Part shown: positions 240 through 21,661 of the stretch, piece by piece
How positions within the stretch are numbered: the stretch's first letter is position 1
Layout: each line of letters begins with the position of its first letter
NCBI GenBank assembly: GCA_002712305.1
Contig: PATE01000110.1
Span: forward strand, 1-24,076
Source: Gemmatimonadota bacterium
GTDB lineage: Bacteria > Latescibacterota > UBA2968 > UBA8231
Direction: 5' to 3'
Length of the DNA: 24,076 nucleotides
Translations under genes and position numbers: made by a program
The notes under the pieces: generated by a model
Seen by the model: only the letters and a program-made list of their open reading frames with translations
What the model was told of the DNA's origin: nothing
The model's database searches: none

Positions 240-2357
240 ATGGACTACTTCCGCGGTAAGCGTTTTCTCGACACGCTCCCCGATTGGGAGCGTGGACGGC
301 CCGCTCTGGGGCCTGTGGAGCACTATCTACCTCGCCTGCGGTGTCTGCTCACACGCCTCGATGACCCTCAGGCCTCGACACGCAGCATCATCGTAGGCGG
401 AACCAATGGCAAGGGCACGGTCTCGTCCCTGCTGTGCGATCTGTTGCAGGCCGCAGGCCTGCGCTGCGGCCTCTACACCTCCCCCCACTTGCACAGCCAG
501 CGTGAACGTATCCGAGTAGATGGTCAGCTGCTGTCGAAGGATGAATGGGCAGACGGGCTGACTCGCCTGTACGACGTCACCCGCGGATTCACCACAGAAG
601 GCCTCGGAGCCTTCACCCGCTTCGAGGCGCTCACCGTGCTGGCCGCCGATCTGTTCGCAACCAATGACGTGGATATCGCCATCTACGAGGTCGGACTCGG
701 CGGACGCTATGACAGCACCAACGCCTGGGACCACGATGCTGCGATCCTGACGCGGATCGGACTGGATCACTGTCATATTCTCGGCGATGAACTGACGCAG
801 ATCGCTGATGAGAAGCTGCCGATCGCCAGGGAAGGACGCCCCTTGTTCACCACCGAGGCGCAGGAAGGCATCGTCCTCGACCACATCCGTCGTCACTGCG
901 CAGCATCGAAGATTCCCTTGTTCGTGGCCGGGATCGATGGGACTCGCGGTGCCGAGCGCGACACAGCGGTCCCCTATGCGGTGTCCGTCGCTGCCGGTCG
1001 CGAACGCCCCTGCACGTTCGTCGACAATGCCCGCCTCGCCCTGTCCGTCGCAAGCTGGGTCGAGCCGTCGATGGCACCCACGATCACGTCGCAGGTGCTG
1101 GATCGATTCCGTCACCCCGGACGTTTCGAGATCGCCCGGCGCGAGCCCTGGATGATTCTCGATGGCGCCCACAACCCGGCGGCGGCATCGGCCCTGGTGG
1201 AAGATCTGACCTCCCTGGCGAAACAGTGGTGTTTTGTCGTCGCCTTGCTGAAGGGACACGATGCAGCGGGCGTTCTGCAGGCCCTGGCCCCCGTCGCGTC
1301 CCGGATGATCCTGACCCAGATAGACCACCCCAAGGCGATCAGCGCTCGCGACCTGGCAGCGGTGGCGCCTGCCGGTGCAGACATCCAGATCGAGTCGTCG
1401 TGGCAAGAGGCGTCGCAGGCGGCTGGCATCGACACGCCTGTGTGTGTTACCGGGTCGCTCTATCTGGTTGCACGAATCCGTGAGCGACTCCATCTGCCCT
1501 TCGAGGCGGAAGGGATCAGCGAGGACGTGGCACGCGAAAGCCTGGTCTGTCTCGAGGCCGCTTGTCATCGCGCTGGGCTCCGCCTGGCTCCCGTGTCAGC
1601 CGATGGGAACGTGGTGCGTCTGGAAGGCGGGAAACGTCCCCTTCTTTTCTACCGCAACAAACACCCTTTCAACGACTACGTCGCCGCGCGCATGGCGGAG
1701 GACAAGGGCTACCAGCAGGAGATTTTCGAGGCGGCGCACTTGCAGGTTCCGCAGACGCTGCAGCTGTTCAATCCCTATGCCGATGACCGATTCAGCCGGT
1801 ACAAGACCCATGAGAACATTTCGGAGATGGTTCGTGATGTCGAATCGAAGCTGACCTATCCGGTGGTCATCAAGAGACCTCGAAGCTCGGTGTCGGCTGG
1901 TGTCTATGCCGAATCGAATGCCCACGCCGTCGAGCGTCGTCTCCAGGCGCTGTTCGAGAACGCAGGTTATCTCGACAACCTGCTGCTGGCCCAGGCGTTT
2001 GTCGCCGGCCCCGAGTATCGGATTCTCGCAAGCGGCACGGACTTGCTGATGGCTTATGGCAAGGTCAGCGACGGCGATGACGTCATCGATGGCGATCTGA
2101 ACCCGCTGCATCACAGTACGGGCCGTGCCGTACGCGTCGAGGAACCAGCCCTGCTCGAGCGCATGACGCAGTTGTGCGGCTGCGTCGCAGAGGCGATCGA
2201 TCTGGGATTCTATGCCATCGACGTGATCGACGGAGAAGTGGGACTCTATATCCTCGAGCTCAATCCGAATCCGTTCTGCTATTTCTACAATCGCAGCAAT
2301 GGGCGTGAAGACTTCATCCGCCTCTACGAGGGGCTCATCGACAGGTTCGTGCGATGA
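240..2357 (+). CDS. Fused FolC-like Mur ligase and ATP-grasp ligase
   Basis: A 705-residue protein with two ATP-dependent ligase modules. Residues about 1-420 are a folylpolyglutamate/dihydrofolate synthase-like Mur ligase: P-loop GGTNGKGT (53-60), S-P-H-L (81-84), Y-E-V-G-L-G-G-R-Y-D-S-T-N (149-161), the E-K pair (191-192) where the family's carbamylated lysine lies, and D-G-A-H-N-P (308-313). Residues about 465-705 are an ATP-grasp domain: Y-P-V-V-I-K-R-P with Lys545, V-A-G-P-E-Y-R (588-594), an acidic D-V-I (661-663) and metal-binding E-L-N-P-N-P (673-678). FolC proteins are usually about 420-440 residues and lack this extension. Cyanophycin synthetase carries both modules in the opposite order. 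The ATG at 240 was chosen because it falls just after the upstream stop and starts directly on a FolC-like N terminus; an in-frame start at 108 lies inside the previous gene. Amide-bond formation is inferred and the substrate is unknown. It overlaps the next gene by ATGA. Confidence 0.85.
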   Translation: MDYFRGKRFLDTLPDWERGRPALGPVEHYLPRLRCLLTRLDDPQASTRSIIVGGTNGKGTVSSLLCDLLQAAGLRCGLYTSPHLHSQRERIRVDGQLLSKDEWADGLTRLYDVTRGFTTEGLGAFTRFEALTVLAADLFATNDVDIAIYEVGLGGRYDSTNAWDHDAAILTRIGLDHCHILGDELTQIADEKLPIAREGRPLFTTEAQEGIVLDHIRRHCAASKIPLFVAGIDGTRGAERDTAVPYAVSVAAGRERPCTFVDNARLALSVASWVEPSMAPTITSQVLDRFRHPGRFEIARREPWMILDGAHNPAAASALVEDLTSLAKQWCFVVALLKGHDAAGVLQALAPVASRMILTQIDHPKAISARDLAAVAPAGADIQIESSWQEASQAAGIDTPVCVTGSLYLVARIRERLHLPFEAEGISEDVARESLVCLEAACHRAGLRLAPVSADGNVVRLEGGKRPLLFYRNKHPFNDYVAARMAEDKGYQQEIFEAAHLQVPQTLQLFNPYADDRFSRYKTHENISEMVRDVESKLTYPVVIKRPRSSVSAGVYAESNAHAVERRLQALFENAGYLDNLLLAQAFVAGPEYRILASGTDLLMAYGKVSDGDDVIDGDLNPLHHSTGRAVRVEEPALLERMTQLCGCVAEAIDLGFYAIDVIDGEVGLYILELNPNPFCYFYNRSNGREDFIRLYEGLIDRFVR

Positions 2358-3547
2358 CGAAGCGACAATTCTCGACCCGCCTGATTCACGACAGCGAAGA
2401 ACCCCGCATCGAGGGGGCTGTCAGCCTGCCCATCTTTCAGAGTGCGACCTATCGGGCCACCTCAGGTGACGAGACGACGTACGATGATATCCGATATCTA
2501 CGTCTGAGCAATTCGCCGAATCACCAACGCCTGGCCCAGAAACTGGCCGGATTGTGCGAGGCCGAGGCGGCGCTGGTCACCGGCTCCGGCATGGCGGCGA
2601 TCAGTACGACACTGCTGAGTCTGGTGAAGACGGGTGACCATATCCTCGCTCAGGACTGCCTCTACGGGGGGACGCTCAGTTTCCTCCATGAAGAGGCGCC
2701 GGGGCTCGGTATCGACGTCGACTTTGTCGACGCGGAAGATCCAGATTCGTGGGCGGAGGTATGCAGGCCCCAGACGCGCTTGTTCTACGTGGAGACGATG
2801 AGCAATCCTCTCCTGAAGGTGCCGGATCTTCCCGCCGTCGTCGATTTCTGCCAGCAGCACTCCCTCACGTCCCTCATCGACAATACGTTCGCTTCGCCAG
2901 CGCTGTTTCAGCCCTTGTCGATGGGATTCGATGTGGAGTTGCACAGTGCGACGAAGTATCTCAATGGTCACTCGGATATCGTTGCTGGGTGTGTGGCGTC
3001 GACGAGGGAGCACATCTCAACGATTACGCACCGCCTCAATCACCTCGGCGGAATTCTCGACCCGCACGCCTGTTTTCTGCTGCATCGTGGCTTGAAAACG
3101 CTCGAACTGCGCATGACACAGCAATGCCACAATGCACAGATGCTCGCCGAGCGTCTCCAGGAACATCCAGACGTGAGCCAGGTGCATTACCCTGGTCTCA
3201 GCTCACACCCTGCTCACCAGCGGGCGTCGGAATGGTTCGGCGGTTGTGGGGGTGTGCTGAGCTTCTCCGTCGTGGGAGATGGGGCACGGGCGCAGCGGCT
3301 CCTGAATCAGCTCACGCTGGCGGTGGATGCGCCGAGTCTGGGGGGGGTCGAGACACTGGTGAGTCGCCCTGCGGTGAGCTCACACGCGGGACAATCCGCG
3401 CAACAGCGGCAGACTCTGGGGATCAGCGACCAGCTCATCCGCGTGGCCGTGGGCATCGAGGCGGCACAAGATCTCTGGGACGACTTCGAGCAGGCCTTAG
3501 ATGCTTCGGCGCCCCAATCTGAAGTCGTTGCAATGGAAGATTCATAA
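2354..3547 (+). CDS. Cystathionine gamma-synthase/lyase-family PLP enzyme
   Basis: A 397-residue Cys/Met-metabolism PLP enzyme (fold type I), full length for the family. Visible marks are G-S-G-M-A-A-I (78-84), D-C-L-Y-G-G-T (101-107) with the ring-stacking Tyr104, Y-V-E-T-M-S-N-P (145-152), the cofactor-nitrogen-binding Asp176 in L-I-D-N-T-F-A, the Schiff-base Lys201 in S-A-T-K-Y-L-N-G-H-S-D, and the C-terminal S-L-G-G-V-E-T-L and R-V-A-V-G-I-E segments. At the position of the methionine gamma-lyase active-site cysteine there is a glycine (LYGGT), which favours a gamma-synthase or beta-lyase type over a methionine gamma-lyase. The family acts on sulfur amino acids or O-acylhomoserine; this substrate cannot be told from sequence. 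The ATG overlaps the stop of the FolC/ATP-grasp gene (ATGA), so the two are probably translationally coupled and used together. Confidence 0.92.
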   Translation: MTKRQFSTRLIHDSEEPRIEGAVSLPIFQSATYRATSGDETTYDDIRYLRLSNSPNHQRLAQKLAGLCEAEAALVTGSGMAAISTTLLSLVKTGDHILAQDCLYGGTLSFLHEEAPGLGIDVDFVDAEDPDSWAEVCRPQTRLFYVETMSNPLLKVPDLPAVVDFCQQHSLTSLIDNTFASPALFQPLSMGFDVELHSATKYLNGHSDIVAGCVASTREHISTITHRLNHLGGILDPHACFLLHRGLKTLELRMTQQCHNAQMLAERLQEHPDVSQVHYPGLSSHPAHQRASEWFGGCGGVLSFSVVGDGARAQRLLNQLTLAVDAPSLGGVETLVSRPAVSSHAGQSAQQRQTLGISDQLIRVAVGIEAAQDLWDDFEQALDASAPQSEVVAMEDS

Positions 3548-9598: not shown

Positions 9599-10702
9599 TC
9601 ACACGCGATAACGCGCGACAATGTCGTCGACGAGTTCGACACCCAAACCGGGCGTGTCGTCGAGGTGCAGGTGACCCTCGCGAAAATCCATGGTGTGACG
9701 AACCAGGTCGCGGGCCAGTGGCGACGGCGCGCGCGTGAATTCGGTCAGGGGGTCCGGTGACGCCGCCGTCCACTGCGCGGAGGCGGCGAGCAGGACGCCC
9801 GTGCCAAAGGCATGGGGCACGGGTCGACAACCGACTTCCAATGACCGTTCGGCGAGGCGCTGGCCATAACTGATTCCGCCGACGCGTCCCAGGTCGGGCT
9901 GCACGAAGTGCAGCCCTGTCGCCAGCAACTGTTCGTACTCCTCCATCAGTGTGATCGCTTCGCCGCCGGCAATGGGCACGGCTGACTCGGCACACAAATG
10001 GCGGTGTCCATCAAAGTCATATGGATGCAGGGCCTCTTCGAGCCACGCAATGTCGTAGGCTGCAAAGGAACCGGCTCGCTCGATGGCCGTGGCAGCGTCC
10101 CAGGCACGACCTGCATCGACCATGAGGGCCACATCTCCGAGAGCCTGCCGCGCGGCGGCGACGAGTTCCTCATCGAGGGTGGCATCGGCGCCCATCGGAC
10201 CCCATCCATACTTCACGAAACGATAACCGGCATCGACGAAACTCGACGCCGATGGGCCCAACTGTTCAGGAGTATCCGGCCAGAGGACACTCGCATAGGC
10301 CGGAACCCGGTCTGCCGCATCCGCCCTCAACAGTCGCCGCACAGGGACTCCGGCGATCTTGCCTCGCAGATCCCACAGGGCCATGTCCACACCACTCATG
10401 GCGTGCCTCGCAATTCCGCCGGGTCCGTACCACGCGGTGCCCTCGATCATGGCCGCGTCGATGCCGGCGGCATCATTGATCTCCATCCCCGTGATGATGG
10501 CCGCCAATCCGTGTCGGAACGGTGCCGACCGGGGCGACTCGACCACGGCGCGGGCCACATAGCTGCACGATACGACCTCACCCAAGCCGGTCGTTCCATC
10601 TTCGGCGTGGAGACGGACCAGCAGAACGTCCTGTGTGCCGTCAGCGACTTCTCGCACTTCGGGCAATCTCAGATGGATTGCTTCAACACGGTCAATTTTC
10701 AC
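9599..10702 (-). CDS. Mandelate racemase/muconate lactonizing enzyme (enolase superfamily)
   Basis: A 367-residue enolase-superfamily protein with an N-terminal capping domain (about 1-120) and a modified TIM barrel. The active-site residues can be traced: Lys164 in F-V-K-Y-G-W-G-P, metal ligands Asp196 (M-V-D-A-G-R-A-W-D), Glu222 (W-L-E-E-A-L) and Glu248 (A-G-G-E-A), Asp270 (Q-P-D-L-G-R-V-G-G) and the general-base His297 (V-P-H-A-F-G-T-G). The His-Asp dyad fits the mandelate racemase subgroup, which includes sugar-acid dehydratases and racemases. The usual K-x-K motif reads K-Y-G here, so the second catalytic lysine is missing. The start is GTG at 10702 and overlaps the queC stop (GTGA), so translation is probably coupled. 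Confidence 0.9.
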   Translation of the reverse strand: MKIDRVEAIHLRLPEVREVADGTQDVLLVRLHAEDGTTGLGEVVSCSYVARAVVESPRSAPFRHGLAAIITGMEINDAAGIDAAMIEGTAWYGPGGIARHAMSGVDMALWDLRGKIAGVPVRRLLRADAADRVPAYASVLWPDTPEQLGPSASSFVDAGYRFVKYGWGPMGADATLDEELVAAARQALGDVALMVDAGRAWDAATAIERAGSFAAYDIAWLEEALHPYDFDGHRHLCAESAVPIAGGEAITLMEEYEQLLATGLHFVQPDLGRVGGISYGQRLAERSLEVGCRPVPHAFGTGVLLAASAQWTAASPDPLTEFTRAPSPLARDLVRHTMDFREGHLHLDDTPGLGVELVDDIVARYRV

Positions 10703-11385
10703 CGGGCGGCTTGCTCCTCATAGTCGATGGGGTCATCCACATCGTGGGCGGCGAAGGCGGCCAGGCGCTCACTGCACGCATCGCAGACCCCGCAGGCCGG
10801 CCTGCGGCCCTCGTAGCAGGTGTGGGTCAGTTCGTAGGGGACTCCCAGTTCGAGTCCCAATTGGACAACTCGCTTCTTCGAATACTCCACGAGGGGCGTG
10901 TGAATGCGGAAGTCCGCCTCCTTCGTCGCACCCAGTCCCAGTGTGGATTCCAGACTATCGTAGAATTCGCGTCGGCAGTCTCGATACGCCGCCTGATCGT
11001 CACGTACGGGGGCGATGTAGAGGTCGTGAACGTCCTCCACTTCTGCGACACCGGCGGCCAGTGTGACAAACAGGAGGTTGCGGAAGGGGACGACTGTGGC
11101 CGTCTGTCGATCTTCGACAGCCGCCGGGACGGCCAGATCGGGGTCGGTGAGTGGGCTGCCACCGATCGAGCGAAGGTCGACCTGGATCTGCCGGTGGGTT
11201 GCGACGCCGGCGAGGGTCGACAACTGTTGCGCGAATTCCAGTTCCACGCGATGACGCTGTCCGTAGTCGATGCTCACCGAGTGTACGGGCCCCTGTGTGT
11301 TTGCCCGTACCCACCATAGGCAGGTGGTTGAGTCCATCCCACCGCTGAGCAGAACGAGGGAGGGTGAACTACCCGTGTCGGTCAT
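10699..11385 (-). CDS. queC: QueC, 7-cyano-7-deazaguanine synthase
   Basis: A 228-residue QueC-family enzyme, about normal length. The PP-loop ATPase motif S-G-G-M-D-S-T is at 14-20, S-I-D-Y-G-Q-R-H at 38-45, V-P-F-R-N at 99-103, and the zinc-binding cysteines are at 190, 198, 201 and 204 (C-x7-C-x2-C-x2-C). QueC converts 7-carboxy-7-deazaguanine to preQ0 with ATP and ammonia for queuosine or other deazapurines. QueD, QueE and QueF are not in the window. The ATG at 11385 overlaps the stop of the MBL-fold gene (ATGA), and its own stop overlaps the GTG of the enolase-superfamily gene. An in-frame upstream start at 11433 would lie inside the MBL gene and adds no family sequence. Related QueC-like proteins also occur in antiphage systems, but nothing else here supports that role. 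Confidence 0.93.
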   Translation of the reverse strand: MTDTGSSPSLVLLSGGMDSTTCLWWVRANTQGPVHSVSIDYGQRHRVELEFAQQLSTLAGVATHRQIQVDLRSIGGSPLTDPDLAVPAAVEDRQTATVVPFRNLLFVTLAAGVAEVEDVHDLYIAPVRDDQAAYRDCRREFYDSLESTLGLGATKEADFRIHTPLVEYSKKRVVQLGLELGVPYELTHTCYEGRRPACGVCDACSERLAAFAAHDVDDPIDYEEQAAR

Positions 11386-13310
11386 CGGGTCCGCTTTCTT
11401 CGTTTGCGCTTCACATCGACCAAAGCCACACAAGCTTCAGGGTGGACAACCTTGTCGAAGGTGACATCGAGGGCCAGCAGCTGTCGACCCGTCTTTGCAG
11501 TCTCGGCGACATCTATGCGTAGCTTCAGACGGCGACTCCCCCCAGCAGGCACCGTCGTTCGCCGCCGCGAGGGCGTCGGGGGGGCCAGGTCAGCCGTGGG
11601 CACAGGTTCGATCTCAGCCACCAGACTTGTGCGTTTGTAGTTGGTCACTACGACATGGATGTCGAGGCTGCCGCCCGGTATCGCCTCGATGGCAAAGGGT
11701 TCGAAGCGCACGACTCGTGGGTCATAGTTCGCTCGCCAGGCAGAACCAGGACACACATCGGCGACAGCTGTTTCCGCCTCGTCACACCAGGCAAGGATCG
11801 CCTCGTGGAGTCGAGCATCGAAGTGGTAGAGGCATTGATGGCCATTACAGACGATGTCCGGGGCGATCTGCAGGCCGACGCGAGCAGAGCGGGCGAAACC
11901 CTCTCTGAATCGGCTACCGTTGAAGGCACAGAAACCGCCCGTTCCATTCCATCGGCTCGGTGGCTGGAAATTGTCGCCTGAGATCAGAACGCGCCGGTCA
12001 TCGACGAGCGTGTCGAAAGCGCAGTGCCACCACGTCTGCCCCGGATAGGGTCGTACGCCCAGGTCGTATTCACGCCAGCGGAGGCGGCCTTCTTCGGGCA
12101 ACACCCGATCGGCGTCGACCGACTCGAGTGGCAAAAAGGGGACATCGAGACGATTGCGGTCGCGTAGCGGTTCGGCGACCCACGGGTGCAGCCAGATCTG
12201 GGCCCCGTAGCGTTTCCGCAGATCGAGTAGACCATTGCTGTGGTCGTAGTGGTAGTGGGTGGCCGTGGCAACATCCGGCCGCAGTCCTGTGTGCTCCACA
12301 AGCCGTTCAAGGGCGGGCAGGCTGCCCTTCACAGGATCGACGATCAAAGCACTGCCGTCGTAGCTGGCCAGCAGATAGCTATTGCCGCCAAACGCGTAGA
12401 GATGGGGCAGGATCTGTCGAACACCCTCGGCCACAGTCTCGGCGTTGTACCACCGAGAGGGCTCTCCCGCGGCGATCGCCGTCTTGGCACTCACCAGCCG
12501 CAGCAGTCGATCCTGCAGGCGGGCCAGCAGATCTCTAGGCTCCCGGCGCACGATGTTTCCGTGGCTCGGCAACAGCAGATCGATGCGATTCGAACGCAGT
12601 CGCTCCAGACCATACCAGGCTTGCAGGACCCCCTCCGGTGTCCAATGATCCCATTCGAGGTGATAGGGTTGATGGATGGTGGCGCCTGCATGGGCCGCGT
12701 CACCACAGAAGATCGCCTGTCGATCGCCGCAGTTGAGCAGGTAACTCAGCGCCCCTCGGGAATGGCCCGGCGTGGCGATGGCACACAGGCGCACCTTGCC
12801 GAAGCAGATCTCACTGTCAGCGCTGATGGCTCGCAGCCGTTGACGTGAGCTTCTCAGCAGTGGCTGTCGGGGCGCAGCGTACGAGGTCGGGCAACCGGCG
12901 GCCTGATAGTTCGCCCAGAACGTCTTGATGTCGTCGGCGAGGGGAAGATCGCCTGTTGGGAGAAAGATGTCGCCCCGATACTCATCGGCCAGAGGGCCAG
13001 GGCGATACAGTCCGCAGACCCCGTCCCGATGCAGATGGGTGATGACGACGGCATCGACCATCGTGACGCCGATCTGATCGAGGTGATGCCACCACCGGCC
13101 GCGTCCGGGGTCGATGATAACGATGTGCCCCGGTTCGGTCCGCACTGCGTACGTGTTGACGCCATCGGCATACCGCAGAACGCCGAGCCCGACAGACTGC
13201 CAGCGTCCTTCGGCGATGGACCGGTGCCCAGACCGCGACGGATCCGATCGATGAGATTCAGACGCGTGTCCCGACAGATGTCCGGATGGTTGTGTTGACG
13301 AGTGCCCCAT
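11382..13310 (-). CDS. Tandem metallo-beta-lactamase-fold hydrolase with C-terminal beta-sandwich
   Basis: A 642-residue protein with two MBL-fold units in a row. Unit 1 (about 40-260) has H-L-H-R-D-G (92-97), T-P-G-H-S (180-184), C-G-D-A-A (202-206) and P-S-H-G-N (248-252). The last His of the HxHxDH motif is Gly97, so one metal site is altered. Unit 2 (about 300-510) has the full T-H-Y-H-Y-D-H (351-357), His429, S-G-D-N (444-447) and N-G-H-Q (489-492). Residues about 530-635 look like an Ig-type beta-sandwich, and the C terminus is very basic. The first 35 residues are Ser/His-rich and unlike a catalytic domain, so the true start may lie later; no good ribosome site precedes the ATG at 13310. 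No signal peptide is seen. The substrate is unknown. It overlaps queC by 4 nt. Confidence 0.85.
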   Translation of the reverse strand: MGHSSTQPSGHLSGHASESHRSDPSRSGHRSIAEGRWQSVGLGVLRYADGVNTYAVRTEPGHIVIIDPGRGRWWHHLDQIGVTMVDAVVITHLHRDGVCGLYRPGPLADEYRGDIFLPTGDLPLADDIKTFWANYQAAGCPTSYAAPRQPLLRSSRQRLRAISADSEICFGKVRLCAIATPGHSRGALSYLLNCGDRQAIFCGDAAHAGATIHQPYHLEWDHWTPEGVLQAWYGLERLRSNRIDLLLPSHGNIVRREPRDLLARLQDRLLRLVSAKTAIAAGEPSRWYNAETVAEGVRQILPHLYAFGGNSYLLASYDGSALIVDPVKGSLPALERLVEHTGLRPDVATATHYHYDHSNGLLDLRKRYGAQIWLHPWVAEPLRDRNRLDVPFLPLESVDADRVLPEEGRLRWREYDLGVRPYPGQTWWHCAFDTLVDDRRVLISGDNFQPPSRWNGTGGFCAFNGSRFREGFARSARVGLQIAPDIVCNGHQCLYHFDARLHEAILAWCDEAETAVADVCPGSAWRANYDPRVVRFEPFAIEAIPGGSLDIHVVVTNYKRTSLVAEIEPVPTADLAPPTPSRRRTTVPAGGSRRLKLRIDVAETAKTGRQLLALDVTFDKVVHPEACVALVDVKRKRRKRTR

Positions 13311-18412: not shown

Positions 18413-19099
18413 GTGTACTCTCTCGATTCTACGATACTTCTCCTGATCCCTTGCATGATTCTGGCACTTTGGGCACAACACCGGGTCAAGAGCACGTATA
18501 CGAAATTCAGCCAGGTCGGGTCCGCAGCACAGATTACCGGAGCTGAAGTGGCGCGCCGGTTACTCCAGCAGAATCGCATCGTCGACGTCGCCGTCGAGGA
18601 AACCAGCGGTGTGCTCACCGACCACTATGATCCGCGCTCGAAGGTCGTGCGTCTGTCCTCCGACATCTTTCATGGCCGTCATCTGGCCGGTTTGGCTGTG
18701 GCTGCTCACGAAGTGGGCCACGCGGTTCAGCACGCCCATGGATATTTCGCACTGAATCTCCGGCACGCTTTCCTGCCCGTGGCCAATCTTGGCTCGATGG
18801 CGGCCTTCCCCCTGTTTTTCATCGGATTCTTCTTTACGGGCAGCACGTTTCTCGTCGATCTTGGCATCGCGCTATATGCCGGGGTTGTGGCCTTTCAGGT
18901 GATCACCCTTCCCGTCGAATTCAATGCCAGCTCACGCGCCATGGCCCAGTTGGTGGACGGTCGCTATCTGGCGCCTCAGGAAGGTGTGCTGGCCAAGAAG
19001 GTTCTCAACGCCGCAGCACTGACGTATGTGGCGGCGACGGCGACGGCGCTCATGCATCTGGTGAGGCTCGTCATCCTGCGTCAGGGGATGCGGGACTAA
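18413..19099 (+). CDS. YugP-type membrane zinc metallopeptidase
   Basis: A 228-residue neutral zinc metallopeptidase of the YugP/DUF2268-unrelated Zn_peptidase_2 family. It begins with a membrane segment (about 6-21) and the typical A-Q-x-x-V-K-S-T-Y (21-29). The zinc site is A-A-H-E-V-G-H-A-V-Q-H-A (97-108) with His99, Glu100 and His103, and the third ligand is probably Glu169 in L-P-V-E-F-N-A-S (166-173). Further hydrophobic helices lie at about 120-165 and near the C terminus. The start is GTG at 18413 with an AGGA 8 nt upstream (18401-18404), which gives the family N terminus exactly; a TTG at 18377 would add unrelated sequence. Its last 29 nt overlap the convergent amrS gene. Confidence 0.9.
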   Translation: MYSLDSTILLLIPCMILALWAQHRVKSTYTKFSQVGSAAQITGAEVARRLLQQNRIVDVAVEETSGVLTDHYDPRSKVVRLSSDIFHGRHLAGLAVAAHEVGHAVQHAHGYFALNLRHAFLPVANLGSMAAFPLFFIGFFFTGSTFLVDLGIALYAGVVAFQVITLPVEFNASSRAMAQLVDGRYLAPQEGVLAKKVLNAAALTYVAATATALMHLVRLVILRQGMRD

Positions 19100-20179
19100 C
19101 GAAGTCCGCCAGTCGTACAGGCTGGCGTTTCGCACCCCACGTACCCGGTCGCCCCCGGAAGACACCGGCCAGGGGTGTTTTGCAGTTTGGACAGGCGCCA
19201 GCTTCGTCAACGTGCCAGGACGTGAGCGTATACCAGTCGCGGCCGACAAGAATCTGACCACACTGTGTGCACGCCGTGCTGCCGCCCTCCTCACCGTGAA
19301 CATTCCCCGTGTACACGTGCCGCAGACCCTGGTCGATGGCGATCTGGCGGGCGCGGGTCAGGGTACTGGCCGGGGTCCGTTCGCGATCCTGCATGCGGAA
19401 GTCCGGATGGAAGGCAGAAAAGTGCACGGGCACTTCGGGCCCCAGATTCTCCCGGATCCAGATACTCTCGGCTTCGATTTCCTGGTCTGAATCATTCTCC
19501 CCGGGGATGAGGAGGGTTGTGATCTCCAGCCAGGTGTCGGTCTCGTGATAAACATAGGTGAGGGTGTCGAGGACACTGGCCAGATCGCCGCTGCACAGAT
19601 CGTGATAAAAGCGTTGGTCAAAAGCCTTCAAGTCCACATTGGCCGCATCCATAGACGCAAAGAACTCGCGCCGTGGTTCCGGACAGATTTCCCCGGCCGT
19701 GACGGCGACGGTGTCGATTCCGGCTTCACGGCATGCGGCGGCCACGTCGACGGCATACTCGAGGAAGATGACGGGATCGTTGTAGGTGAAGGCCACGCTC
19801 GAGCACTGCAATTCGACGGCGGCTCGTGCGATCGTCTCTGGTGATGCTGCATCGGCGAGGGTGTCGACCTCACGCGATTTGCTGATATCCCAATTCTGAC
19901 AGAATCGGAGGTCAGATTGCAGCCAGCGGTGCCGAAGGAGAGAACGGGCGTGCCGGGGAGGAAGTGATGGAGGGGTTTCTTCTCGATAGGATCGACGCAG
20001 AATCCACTCGATCGACCATAGGTGGTGAGCACCATTCCATCACCCCTGCGGGCGCGCACAAAACACAGCCCCTGCTGACCGTCGCGCAATCGGCAGAATC
20101 GCGGACACAGATCGCACTGCAGTCGTGTGTCGTCGACAGCGTGCCAGTACCGCGCAGGATGGGTGGAGATCTGGGGCAA
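19071..20179 (-). pseudogene. amrS: AmmeMemoRadiSam system radical SAM enzyme, frameshifted
   Basis: Reading the minus strand from a TTG at 20179, the N-terminal part has a four-cysteine C-x2-C-x3-C-x9-C cluster (22-39), D-P-I-E-K-K-P-L (63-70) and S-F-G-T-A-G-C-N-L-T (81-90). The frame then breaks. One base is missing between 19909 and 19908; inserting one G there restores the TGC codon of Cys91 and joins onto R-F-C-Q-N-W and the rest of the enzyme, ending at 19071. The repaired protein is 369 residues with CxxxCxxC at 87, 91 and 94 and a C-terminal two-CxxC zinc-ribbon-like region. As sequenced it gives a 183-residue product ending at 19628. The site is not a homopolymer. A sequencing or assembly error and a true mutation are both possible. 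It is divergent from amrB and amrA, its system partners. Confidence 0.88.
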
Positions 20180-20262: not shown

Positions 20263-21099
20263 ATGCCTCCTTCCGACGGCGATGCCGTGCAGGTTCGACC
20301 CGCAGCCGTAGCCGGCCGATTCTACAGTGACGATCGCCATCGTCTTACGCAGACGGTGGCAGCGTATCTCGCCGAGGGGGCAGCCCATCTCCAGGCGAGA
20401 CAAAGGGATTGGCCCCTCTCTGGCCATGTCCGGGCCCTTGTGTGTCCCCATGCGGGGTATGTGTTCTCAGGGCCCATTGCCGGCAGCGCTTACTCCACCC
20501 TTCAGTCACAATGTTCGACGATCCATCGCGTCGTCCTGATCGGTCCTGCTCACCGCGTAGCTGTGCCCGGCCTTGCCGTGCCGTCAGCCTCGGCTCTTGA
20601 CACGCCCCTTGGCACCATCGCCGTCGATCCTGTCGTCACCGAGCTGGTCAACGAAGGCCTTGCAGGCGTCATCGATGAGGCCCACGAAGATGAGCACGCG
20701 CTGGAGGTTCATCTACCCTTCCTGCAGATCGCTCTGAGCGGTGACATCACTATCGTGCCTTTGCTGTTTGGCCAATGCGATCCGCTTGTCATCGGACGCG
20801 TCATCGAGCGCTTGTGGGAGTCGGAGACGCTCTTCGTCATCAGTTCCGACCTGAGTCATTTTCATTCCCATGACGTGGCCGAACGGCTGGATCAGGCGAC
20901 ATCGAGGGCCATTGAAAGCCTCGATGCAGAGGCCCTCGGCGAGGGGGCTGCCTGTGGACGTCTCGGCATCCAGGCGCTGATCGAGGTGGCGATCAAGAAT
21001 GAGTTGAGGGCATTGGCCGTCGATGTGCGGACCTCAGCGGACACGGCCGGCAGTCCGGATCGGGTCGTGGGATATGGGGCCTACGTCTTCCATGAGTGA
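20263..21099 (+). CDS. amrB: AmmeMemoRadiSam system protein B (Memo family)
   Basis: A 278-residue Memo-like protein. The conserved site is complete: His63 in C-P-H-A-G-Y, His97 in I-G-P-A-H-R, the E-H-A-L-E-V-H-L-P-F-L-Q block (144-155), Asp196 and His199 in S-S-D-L-S-H-F-H, and Cys231. These correspond to the His/His/Cys and Asp/His residues that form the metal-binding cleft of human MEMO1. The fold resembles class III extradiol dioxygenases, but the bacterial reaction is not established. The start is an ATG at 20263 in the divergent gap with amrS. Its last 8 nt overlap the amrA ATG, so A and B are probably translated together. Confidence 0.93.
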   Translation: MPPSDGDAVQVRPAAVAGRFYSDDRHRLTQTVAAYLAEGAAHLQARQRDWPLSGHVRALVCPHAGYVFSGPIAGSAYSTLQSQCSTIHRVVLIGPAHRVAVPGLAVPSASALDTPLGTIAVDPVVTELVNEGLAGVIDEAHEDEHALEVHLPFLQIALSGDITIVPLLFGQCDPLVIGRVIERLWESETLFVISSDLSHFHSHDVAERLDQATSRAIESLDAEALGEGAACGRLGIQALIEVAIKNELRALAVDVRTSADTAGSPDRVVGYGAYVFHE

Positions 21100-21661
21100 C
21101 CTCTCCTCCTCCGACTGCAATCGCCTGCTGATGGTTGCAGAACAGGCCATCGATCATCTCCTGGCCGAAGGTGTGGCCCTGCAGATCGATCTGTCCGACT
21201 ATCCGGCCTCACTGCATCGCCAGGCGGCTACCTTCGTGACTCTTCGGCGCGAGGATCGGTCGCTGCGTGGTTGCATGGGCAGCTCCATCCCGATGAAACC
21301 TCTCGTAGAGGATGTGGCGGACAATACGTTCGCCGCCGCCACGCGAGATCCAAGGTTTCCCCGACTGACCCACACGGAGCGCCCCGGTCTACAGCTGTCG
21401 ATCTCCGTTCTTTCGCCGATGGAGCGGCTGCAGGTGGCGGGCACGGCGGACCTGATCCAACAGCTGCGTCCAGGGATCGACGGGTTGATGCTGGTGGACG
21501 GATCGCGTCGTGGGACACTGCTGCCGGCCGTGTGGCAAGCGATCACCGATCCTCAGCAGTTTGTGACCGAGGTCAAGGCGAAGGCGGGCTGGGACGCTGA
21601 CCACTGGTCAGAGACGATCGCAGCCTTCCGGTATACTGCGCAGAGTTTTGGTCCTTCTTGA
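21092..21661 (+). CDS. amrA: AmmeMemoRadiSam system protein A (AMMECR1 family)
   Basis: A 189-residue AMMECR1-domain protein. Family marks are F-V-T-L-R-R (48-53), the invariant L-R-G-C-M-G (58-63), A-T-R-D-P-R-F-P (83-90), L-S-I-S-V-L-S-P (102-109), and G-T-L-L-P-A-V-W near residue 150. AMMECR1 is the human homologue; no activity is established in bacteria. The ATG at 21092 lies inside the end of amrB and starts on sequence that fits the family. Its stop overlaps the TTG of the tamB-like gene (TTGA), continuing a run of coupled genes. Confidence 0.92.
   Translation: MSDLSSSDCNRLLMVAEQAIDHLLAEGVALQIDLSDYPASLHRQAATFVTLRREDRSLRGCMGSSIPMKPLVEDVADNTFAAATRDPRFPRLTHTERPGLQLSISVLSPMERLQVAGTADLIQQLRPGIDGLMLVDGSRRGTLLPAVWQAITDPQQFVTEVKAKAGWDADHWSETIAAFRYTAQSFGPS

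Follow-up and report, generated by a model that had tools for sequence, protein, structure and literature searches.

A fused FolC gene in Latescibacterota

The DNA analysed here (the window, positions 1 to 24,076 of contig PATE01000110.1, from a bacterium of the phylum Latescibacterota) carries near its left end a gene in which a Mur-ligase-type module and an ATP-grasp ligase module are joined in a single uninterrupted frame (Table 1). An earlier reading of the sequence alone, which we call the original prediction, had recognized in this frame two amide-forming ligase modules with their motifs, arranged in the order opposite to that of cyanophycin synthetase; all of this stands, the chain as a whole matching no named family, as does its report of an ATGA overlap with a downstream gene for a pyridoxal phosphate (PLP) enzyme. 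The division into two modules also holds, although the border between them, which had been placed at residues 430-460, lies near residue 424. The fusion opens with a conserved ATG at 240, M1 being invariant in 32 homologues, and at the other end of the gene the ATGA at 2354 makes the start of the PLP gene overlap the fusion's stop codon.

A chance open reading frame, a frameshift or an assembly artefact can be rejected as the source of this fusion, since the same fusion is present in many genomes, including four that consist of a single contig (G018, G026, G029 and G063). Of 40 relatives, 34 have a match of at least 668 residues and a further five a smaller or partial one; in G002 and G019, whose partial matches seemed to lack the ATP-grasp part, the gene is cut by a contig end. 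In an alignment of 32 full-length sequences (of which L053 is cut short at residue 668), the catalytic motifs of both halves are invariant. Between the window and a same-genus relative, the ratio of non-synonymous to synonymous substitution (dN/dS) is about 0.13 for the FolC half (dN 0.229, dS 1.71) and about 0.10 for the ATP-grasp half (dN 0.165, dS 1.59), so that both halves are under purifying selection.

A survey of 64 genomes from the phylum found the ATP-grasp module in three families (f1, f3 and f4) of one class and nowhere else. The fourth family of that class (f2) and families f5-f10 have a stand-alone FolC wherever a FolC was found, and the ATP-grasp profile has no match in any of them; nor did these genomes contain a stand-alone version of the ATP-grasp module, and the window's own genome has no second copy of it. 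The original prediction had asked whether related genomes carry the two modules as unlinked ordinary genes, and the answer is divided: within the three fusion families they are never separate, but f2 and the other classes do have ordinary unfused FolC. A search of plasmids for relatives gave one ordinary RimK at 26%, and viral contigs gave no match. A scan of genome contigs matched only Latescibacterota-type loci, several of them deposited as Gemmatimonadetes; it was based on exact occurrences of six words of eight residues taken from the window, among them NKHPFNDY, which is invariant in the family, so that a diverged fusion elsewhere could escape it. Confinement to Latescibacterota holds for close relatives only. 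Each module is of a known kind; of their combination in this order we found no description in the literature searched. The one paper to bring together folylpolyglutamate, ATP-grasp and fusion concerned pseudomurein, and of three publications on Latescibacterota and folate, none was evidently about folate enzymes by its title and abstract. A housekeeping enzyme of one bacterial class has gained a second, apparently active domain.

The N-terminal module is a FolC

The N-terminal module matches TIGR01499 over residues 31-416 at 3.8e-86 (290 bits, cut-off 162.65) and the FolC proteins of the PDB with values down to 3e-45. Its predicted structure aligns with the FolC crystal structures 3nrs and 1jbw at Z scores of about 42 over about 380-400 residues (42.4 for 3nrs, with 380 residues aligned at 2.4 Å), whereas among other Mur-type ligases CphA1 reaches at most 28.5 and MurC no more than 25.8. 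The motifs of a FolC are present, namely the P-loop GGTNGKGT (residues 53-60), the metal ligands E150 and H177, the carbamylatable K192, R295 and DGAHNP (308-313). All 32 fusions keep K58, E150, H177, K192, D308 and H311, and they are identical at every position that aligns with K60, E146, H173, K188, R289, D302 and H305 of E. coli FolC. The catalytic and substrate-loop positions R32, S/T126, F128, E129, D158 and N161 are kept as well, the first four of which we take to be the counterparts of R49, S150, F152 and E153 at the dihydropteroate site of M. tuberculosis FolC; an SKFE stretch is visible in the alignment of the module to the PDB FolCs. By sequence and by model, then, the N-terminal module is FolC proper and not another Mur-type ligase. 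Its 423 residues are like known FolCs (TIGR01499; E. coli, M. tuberculosis, L. casei) in fold, catalytic residues and above-cut-off score, but those proteins end where the fusion continues with a 280-residue ATP-grasp domain, and their DKD motif is (G/D/S)HD in the fusions. Cyanophycin synthetase (CphA1) likewise joins an ATP-grasp and a Mur-ligase-type module in one chain; unlike it, the fusion has the reverse module order, lacks the CphA N-terminal domain and has FolC proper as its Mur-type module. We therefore rejected a relationship to cyanophycin synthetase (TIGR02068 32.9 bits versus 850, order reversed, Z 42 to FolC versus ≤28.5 to CphA).

Searches with TIGR01499 found one above-cut-off FolC in each fusion genome, and it was the fused one; this holds for the four single-contig genomes, and one metagenome-assembled genome, G057, has two matches. 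The fusion is thus not a paralogue beside an ordinary FolC. As the sole FolC of its genome it is tied to folate, a connection that the original prediction had not made. HPPK is present in 39 of the 40 relatives and dihydropteroate synthase (DHPS) is above cut-off in 37; the window's assembly has no HPPK, but it is 90.9% complete and a same-genus relative has the gene. A CofE-type ligase, the alternative to FolC, is absent from every fusion genome examined. Given this gene content, dihydrofolate synthase activity has to come from the fusion, and folylpolyglutamate synthase activity presumably does too; the presence of HPPK and DHPS in almost all relatives argues for a folate enzyme rather than a cyanophycin-like polymerase. 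Family membership suggests that each module is catalytically active.

Two genomes of the same family, G003 and G016, have no above-cut-off FolC. G003, a relative without the fusion, is alone among the 40 in having a CofE/F420-ligase homologue, of 396 residues (G003:C34:10929-12065, L143; L144 7900-9090). Next to it lie an ABC transporter of the tungstate type, as judged by reading the translations, and other genes that are neither folate nor cof genes. Displacement of FolC by a CofE-type FolC2 in this genome is left as a weak lead, given those neighbours and the fact that DHPS was not found above cut-off there.

The C-terminal ATP-grasp module

The C-terminal module scores 23.3 bits against PF08443 (RimK) in the full-length protein (residues 523-679) and 25.8 bits as the domain alone, where the gathering score is 21; the corresponding values for PF07478 (D-alanine-D-alanine ligase) are 22.3 and 24.8 bits, with a cut-off of 24. 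TIGR00768 (rimK_fam) is matched by the domain alone in all 25 homologues, at best with 2e-17, and among these members profiles of RimK-family alpha-L-glutamate ligase and LysX match 25 of 25, cyanophycin synthetase 17 and MptN one. The residues K489, K545, R594, D661, E673 and N675 are invariant and align to E. coli RimK, and hhalign against that protein preserves the motif order PxN(E/D)...DK...VVK...R...ExN. Modelled alone, the module has a predicted local distance difference test score (pLDDT) of 89.4 and a predicted template modelling score (pTM) of 0.88; the model is closest in fold to ArgX (Z 21.0, 243 residues aligned, 2.8 Å), followed by LysX (20.9 and 20.5), CphA1 (20.1) and RimK (19.9), and RimK is the top rank in Foldseek.

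The module thus shares fold, catalytic residues and best profile matches with the RimK/LysX/ArgX/MptN/CofF glutamate (or aminoadipate) ligases, but unlike them it lies below the family cut-off and is fused to FolC. It has invariant motifs of its own (RNKHPFNDY, AEDK, NPLH, LGFxAxD and NPNPxC), and its conserved stretches NKHPFNDY, FNPxADxRFxRYKTH, NPLH and NPNPxCYFYN match no named family. Since it falls so far below the RimK-family cut-off, it is by sequence a separate, unnamed subfamily near RimK, LysX and ArgX. It might be supposed that the domain is non-catalytic or regulatory, sensing ATP or folate; we find this scarcely credible, because the ATP and metal ligands K489, K545, D661, E673 and N675 are invariant and selection on the module is strongly purifying.

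A possible role in folate tail synthesis

Folate tails control which enzymes use folate as well as its retention in the cell. We see in the fusion the housekeeping FolC of the lineage, to which a carboxylate-amine ligase domain has been joined, and we give a probability of about 0.5 to the reading that this domain acts on the folate tail with glutamate. The FolC module would join dihydropteroate and glutamate to give dihydrofolate and would add gamma-linked glutamates to tetrahydrofolate; the ATP-grasp module would activate the terminal carboxylate of the same folate tail as an acyl phosphate and join a further amino acid to it, most likely L-glutamate via the alpha-carboxyl, and the gamma-glutamyl tail would in this way be lengthened or capped. 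The more specific idea that a single enzyme makes a folate tail by two chemistries, with gamma-linked glutamate from the FolC module and an alpha-linked continuation or cap from the ATP-grasp module, is a tentative one to which we give somewhat less than even odds; folyl-glutamate as the substrate of the ATP-grasp module and the alpha linkage are both suggested by analogy only.

The analogies are these. Alpha linkages in the distal part of the folate tail were reported in E. coli (by Ferone et al. 1986, as cited in PMC1971073), and the open literature searched yielded no gene assigned to this activity. F420 receives a terminal alpha-linked glutamate from CofF (PMC8498797), MptN adds glutamate to an alpha-carboxylate in tetrahydrosarcinapterin, and MyfB, which is 33% identical to MptN, extends the tail of methylofuran (PMC8141765). 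The succession of CofE (gamma-Glu) and CofF (alpha-Glu cap) on the F420 tail has the same logic as that proposed here for one coenzyme tail, but CofE is of unrelated fold, CofE and CofF are separate proteins and the coenzyme is F420. Similarly, MyfA and MyfB, both ATP-grasp enzymes, equip a C1 coenzyme with a polyglutamate tail, as the fusion may do, but they are not fused to a Mur-type ligase and their coenzyme is methylofuran. If the two-chemistry tail is real, the formation of alpha-linked folate polyglutamates, which was reported for E. coli in 1986, would have its dedicated gene, and folate would join F420, tetrahydrosarcinapterin and methylofuran among the coenzymes with a tail made by an ATP-grasp enzyme. 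The fusion is a natural candidate for making alpha-linked tails, or may at least be the sign of a new modification of the folate tail.

Several observations weigh against a glutamate-adding domain on a housekeeping FolC. Residue 340 of the fusion (bases 1257-1259), where the DKD motif has its Lys, is His in all 32 fusions; of 14 stand-alone FolCs from the phylum, 13 have Lys at this place and the remaining one has a gap. The fused FolCs score 212-302 bits against TIGR01499, one partial match apart, versus mostly 362-411 for the stand-alone proteins. The lower scores imply that the FolC half has diverged, and together with the fixed replacement they suggest that its specificity may have shifted. 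Both features would suit a division of labour, in which the FolC module has come to serve chiefly as a dihydrofolate synthase and polyglutamylation has passed to the ATP-grasp module, or the other way round; we think this rather unlikely, as the six catalytic and substrate-loop positions from R32 to N161 are kept and no motif has been lost from either module.

The ATP-grasp half has its own contrary points. Its TIGR00768 score is 32.2 bits where the cut-off is 143.4, which places it outside the RimK family as defined, and D-Ala-D-Ala ligase (Z 19.8) is in a near tie with ArgX, LysX, CphA1 and RimK; because of these two facts the amino acid is not readable from the sequence. A separate true RimK, above cut-off, is present in 12 of 40 relatives, and the module is therefore not a RimK substitute. 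If it joined another amino acid (such as Ala, Asp, Gly or Lys) to the folate tail, the product would be a novel folate conjugate. The top folds do span ligases of differing amino acids (LysX, CphA1 and Ddl), and the sequence is too divergent for specificity to be assigned, but in every member the named models that come closest are those of glutamate or aminoadipate ligases, and we regard this outcome as improbable. Finally, no folate gene clusters with the fusion in any family, its neighbours being moaA, the PLP gene, rimO and OmpA, as might be the case if the ATP-grasp module acted on a non-folate substrate and were merely tethered to FolC. The tether, however, is conserved in three families, none of which has the two modules split, and the phylum has no stand-alone version of this module, which makes such an arrangement unlikely.

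Gene neighbourhood of the fusion

Table 1. Features of the fusion locus in the window.
Feature	Position	Strand	Basis or remark
MoaA (GTP 3',8-cyclase), C-terminal 76 residues	1..231	+	PF06463, 30.4 bits for the partial sequence; truncated where the contig starts
FolC-ATP-grasp fusion protein	240..2357	+	705 aa plus stop, single uninterrupted frame
FolC module (dihydrofolate synthase / folylpolyglutamate synthase), residues 1-423	240..1508	+	TIGR01499, PDB matches, fold, catalytic residues
ATP-grasp module, residues 424-705, nearest the RimK/LysX/ArgX group	1509..2354	+	PF08443 and other profiles, fold, invariant residues
Cys/Met-metabolism PLP enzyme (cystathionine gamma-synthase / gamma-lyase / methionine gamma-lyase superfamily), 397 aa	2354..3547	+	Cys_Met_Meta_PP, 402.7 bits

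The window begins where the contig begins, and its first bases are the end of moaA, eight bases before the fusion, two points on which the original prediction was silent; a full-length moaA homologue lies at L030 4945-5988 and has both PF06463 and PF04055. By its overlap the PLP gene is, in sequence terms, a translationally coupled neighbour of the fusion in the window. The best match of the encoded enzyme is to methionine gamma-lyase (TIGR01328), at 352 bits and below the cut-off of 549.7.

The original prediction supposed that the fusion and the PLP enzyme jointly build an amide-linked product, perhaps starting from an amino acid derived from sulfur or homoserine metabolism, and it proposed a survey of the PLP neighbour's conservation. 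Gene calls place the PLP gene immediately after the fusion, on its strand, in 14 of 33 loci, with a fifteenth, partial case at a contig end; it is displaced in three loci, missing from the examined flank of one member of the window's family, and absent from the examined flanks of all loci of the other two fusion families. The ATGA overlap and the direct adjacency in most loci of the window's family speak for such coupling. Since that adjacency is found in the window's family only, however, the proposed tie to a sulfur or homoserine amino acid is unsupported; moreover moaA, adjacent upstream in that family only, is equally well linked, and another strong Cys_Met_Meta_PP gene lies elsewhere in the window's genome. 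We consider the joint product very unlikely, and the PLP enzyme is a family-level operon neighbour that says little about the substrate of the fusion. Overall, the original interpretation is partly supported.

Upstream of moaA on the opposite strand, a set of XdhC-like, CoxE-like and CoxD-like genes (clusters c6, c9 and c8) is found in L034, L037, L038, L042, L054 and L059; the names come from reading translations, and not all three genes are in every locus. The set is consistent with a molybdenum-hydroxylase maturation neighbourhood. Within the window, QueC (PF06508, 202.7 bits), whose pathway likewise starts from GTP, is encoded at 10699-11433 on the minus strand, about 7 kb from the moaA-folC pair. 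Farther on, at 19071-20179 (minus strand), the radical-SAM gene of an AmmeMemoRadiSam-type trio is apparently divided between two frames that overlap, the break falling inside the CxxxCxxC region or shortly behind it. It adjoins intact Memo (20263-21099) and AMMECR1 (21023-21661) genes, and the split appears to be an assembly frameshift or a broken gene.

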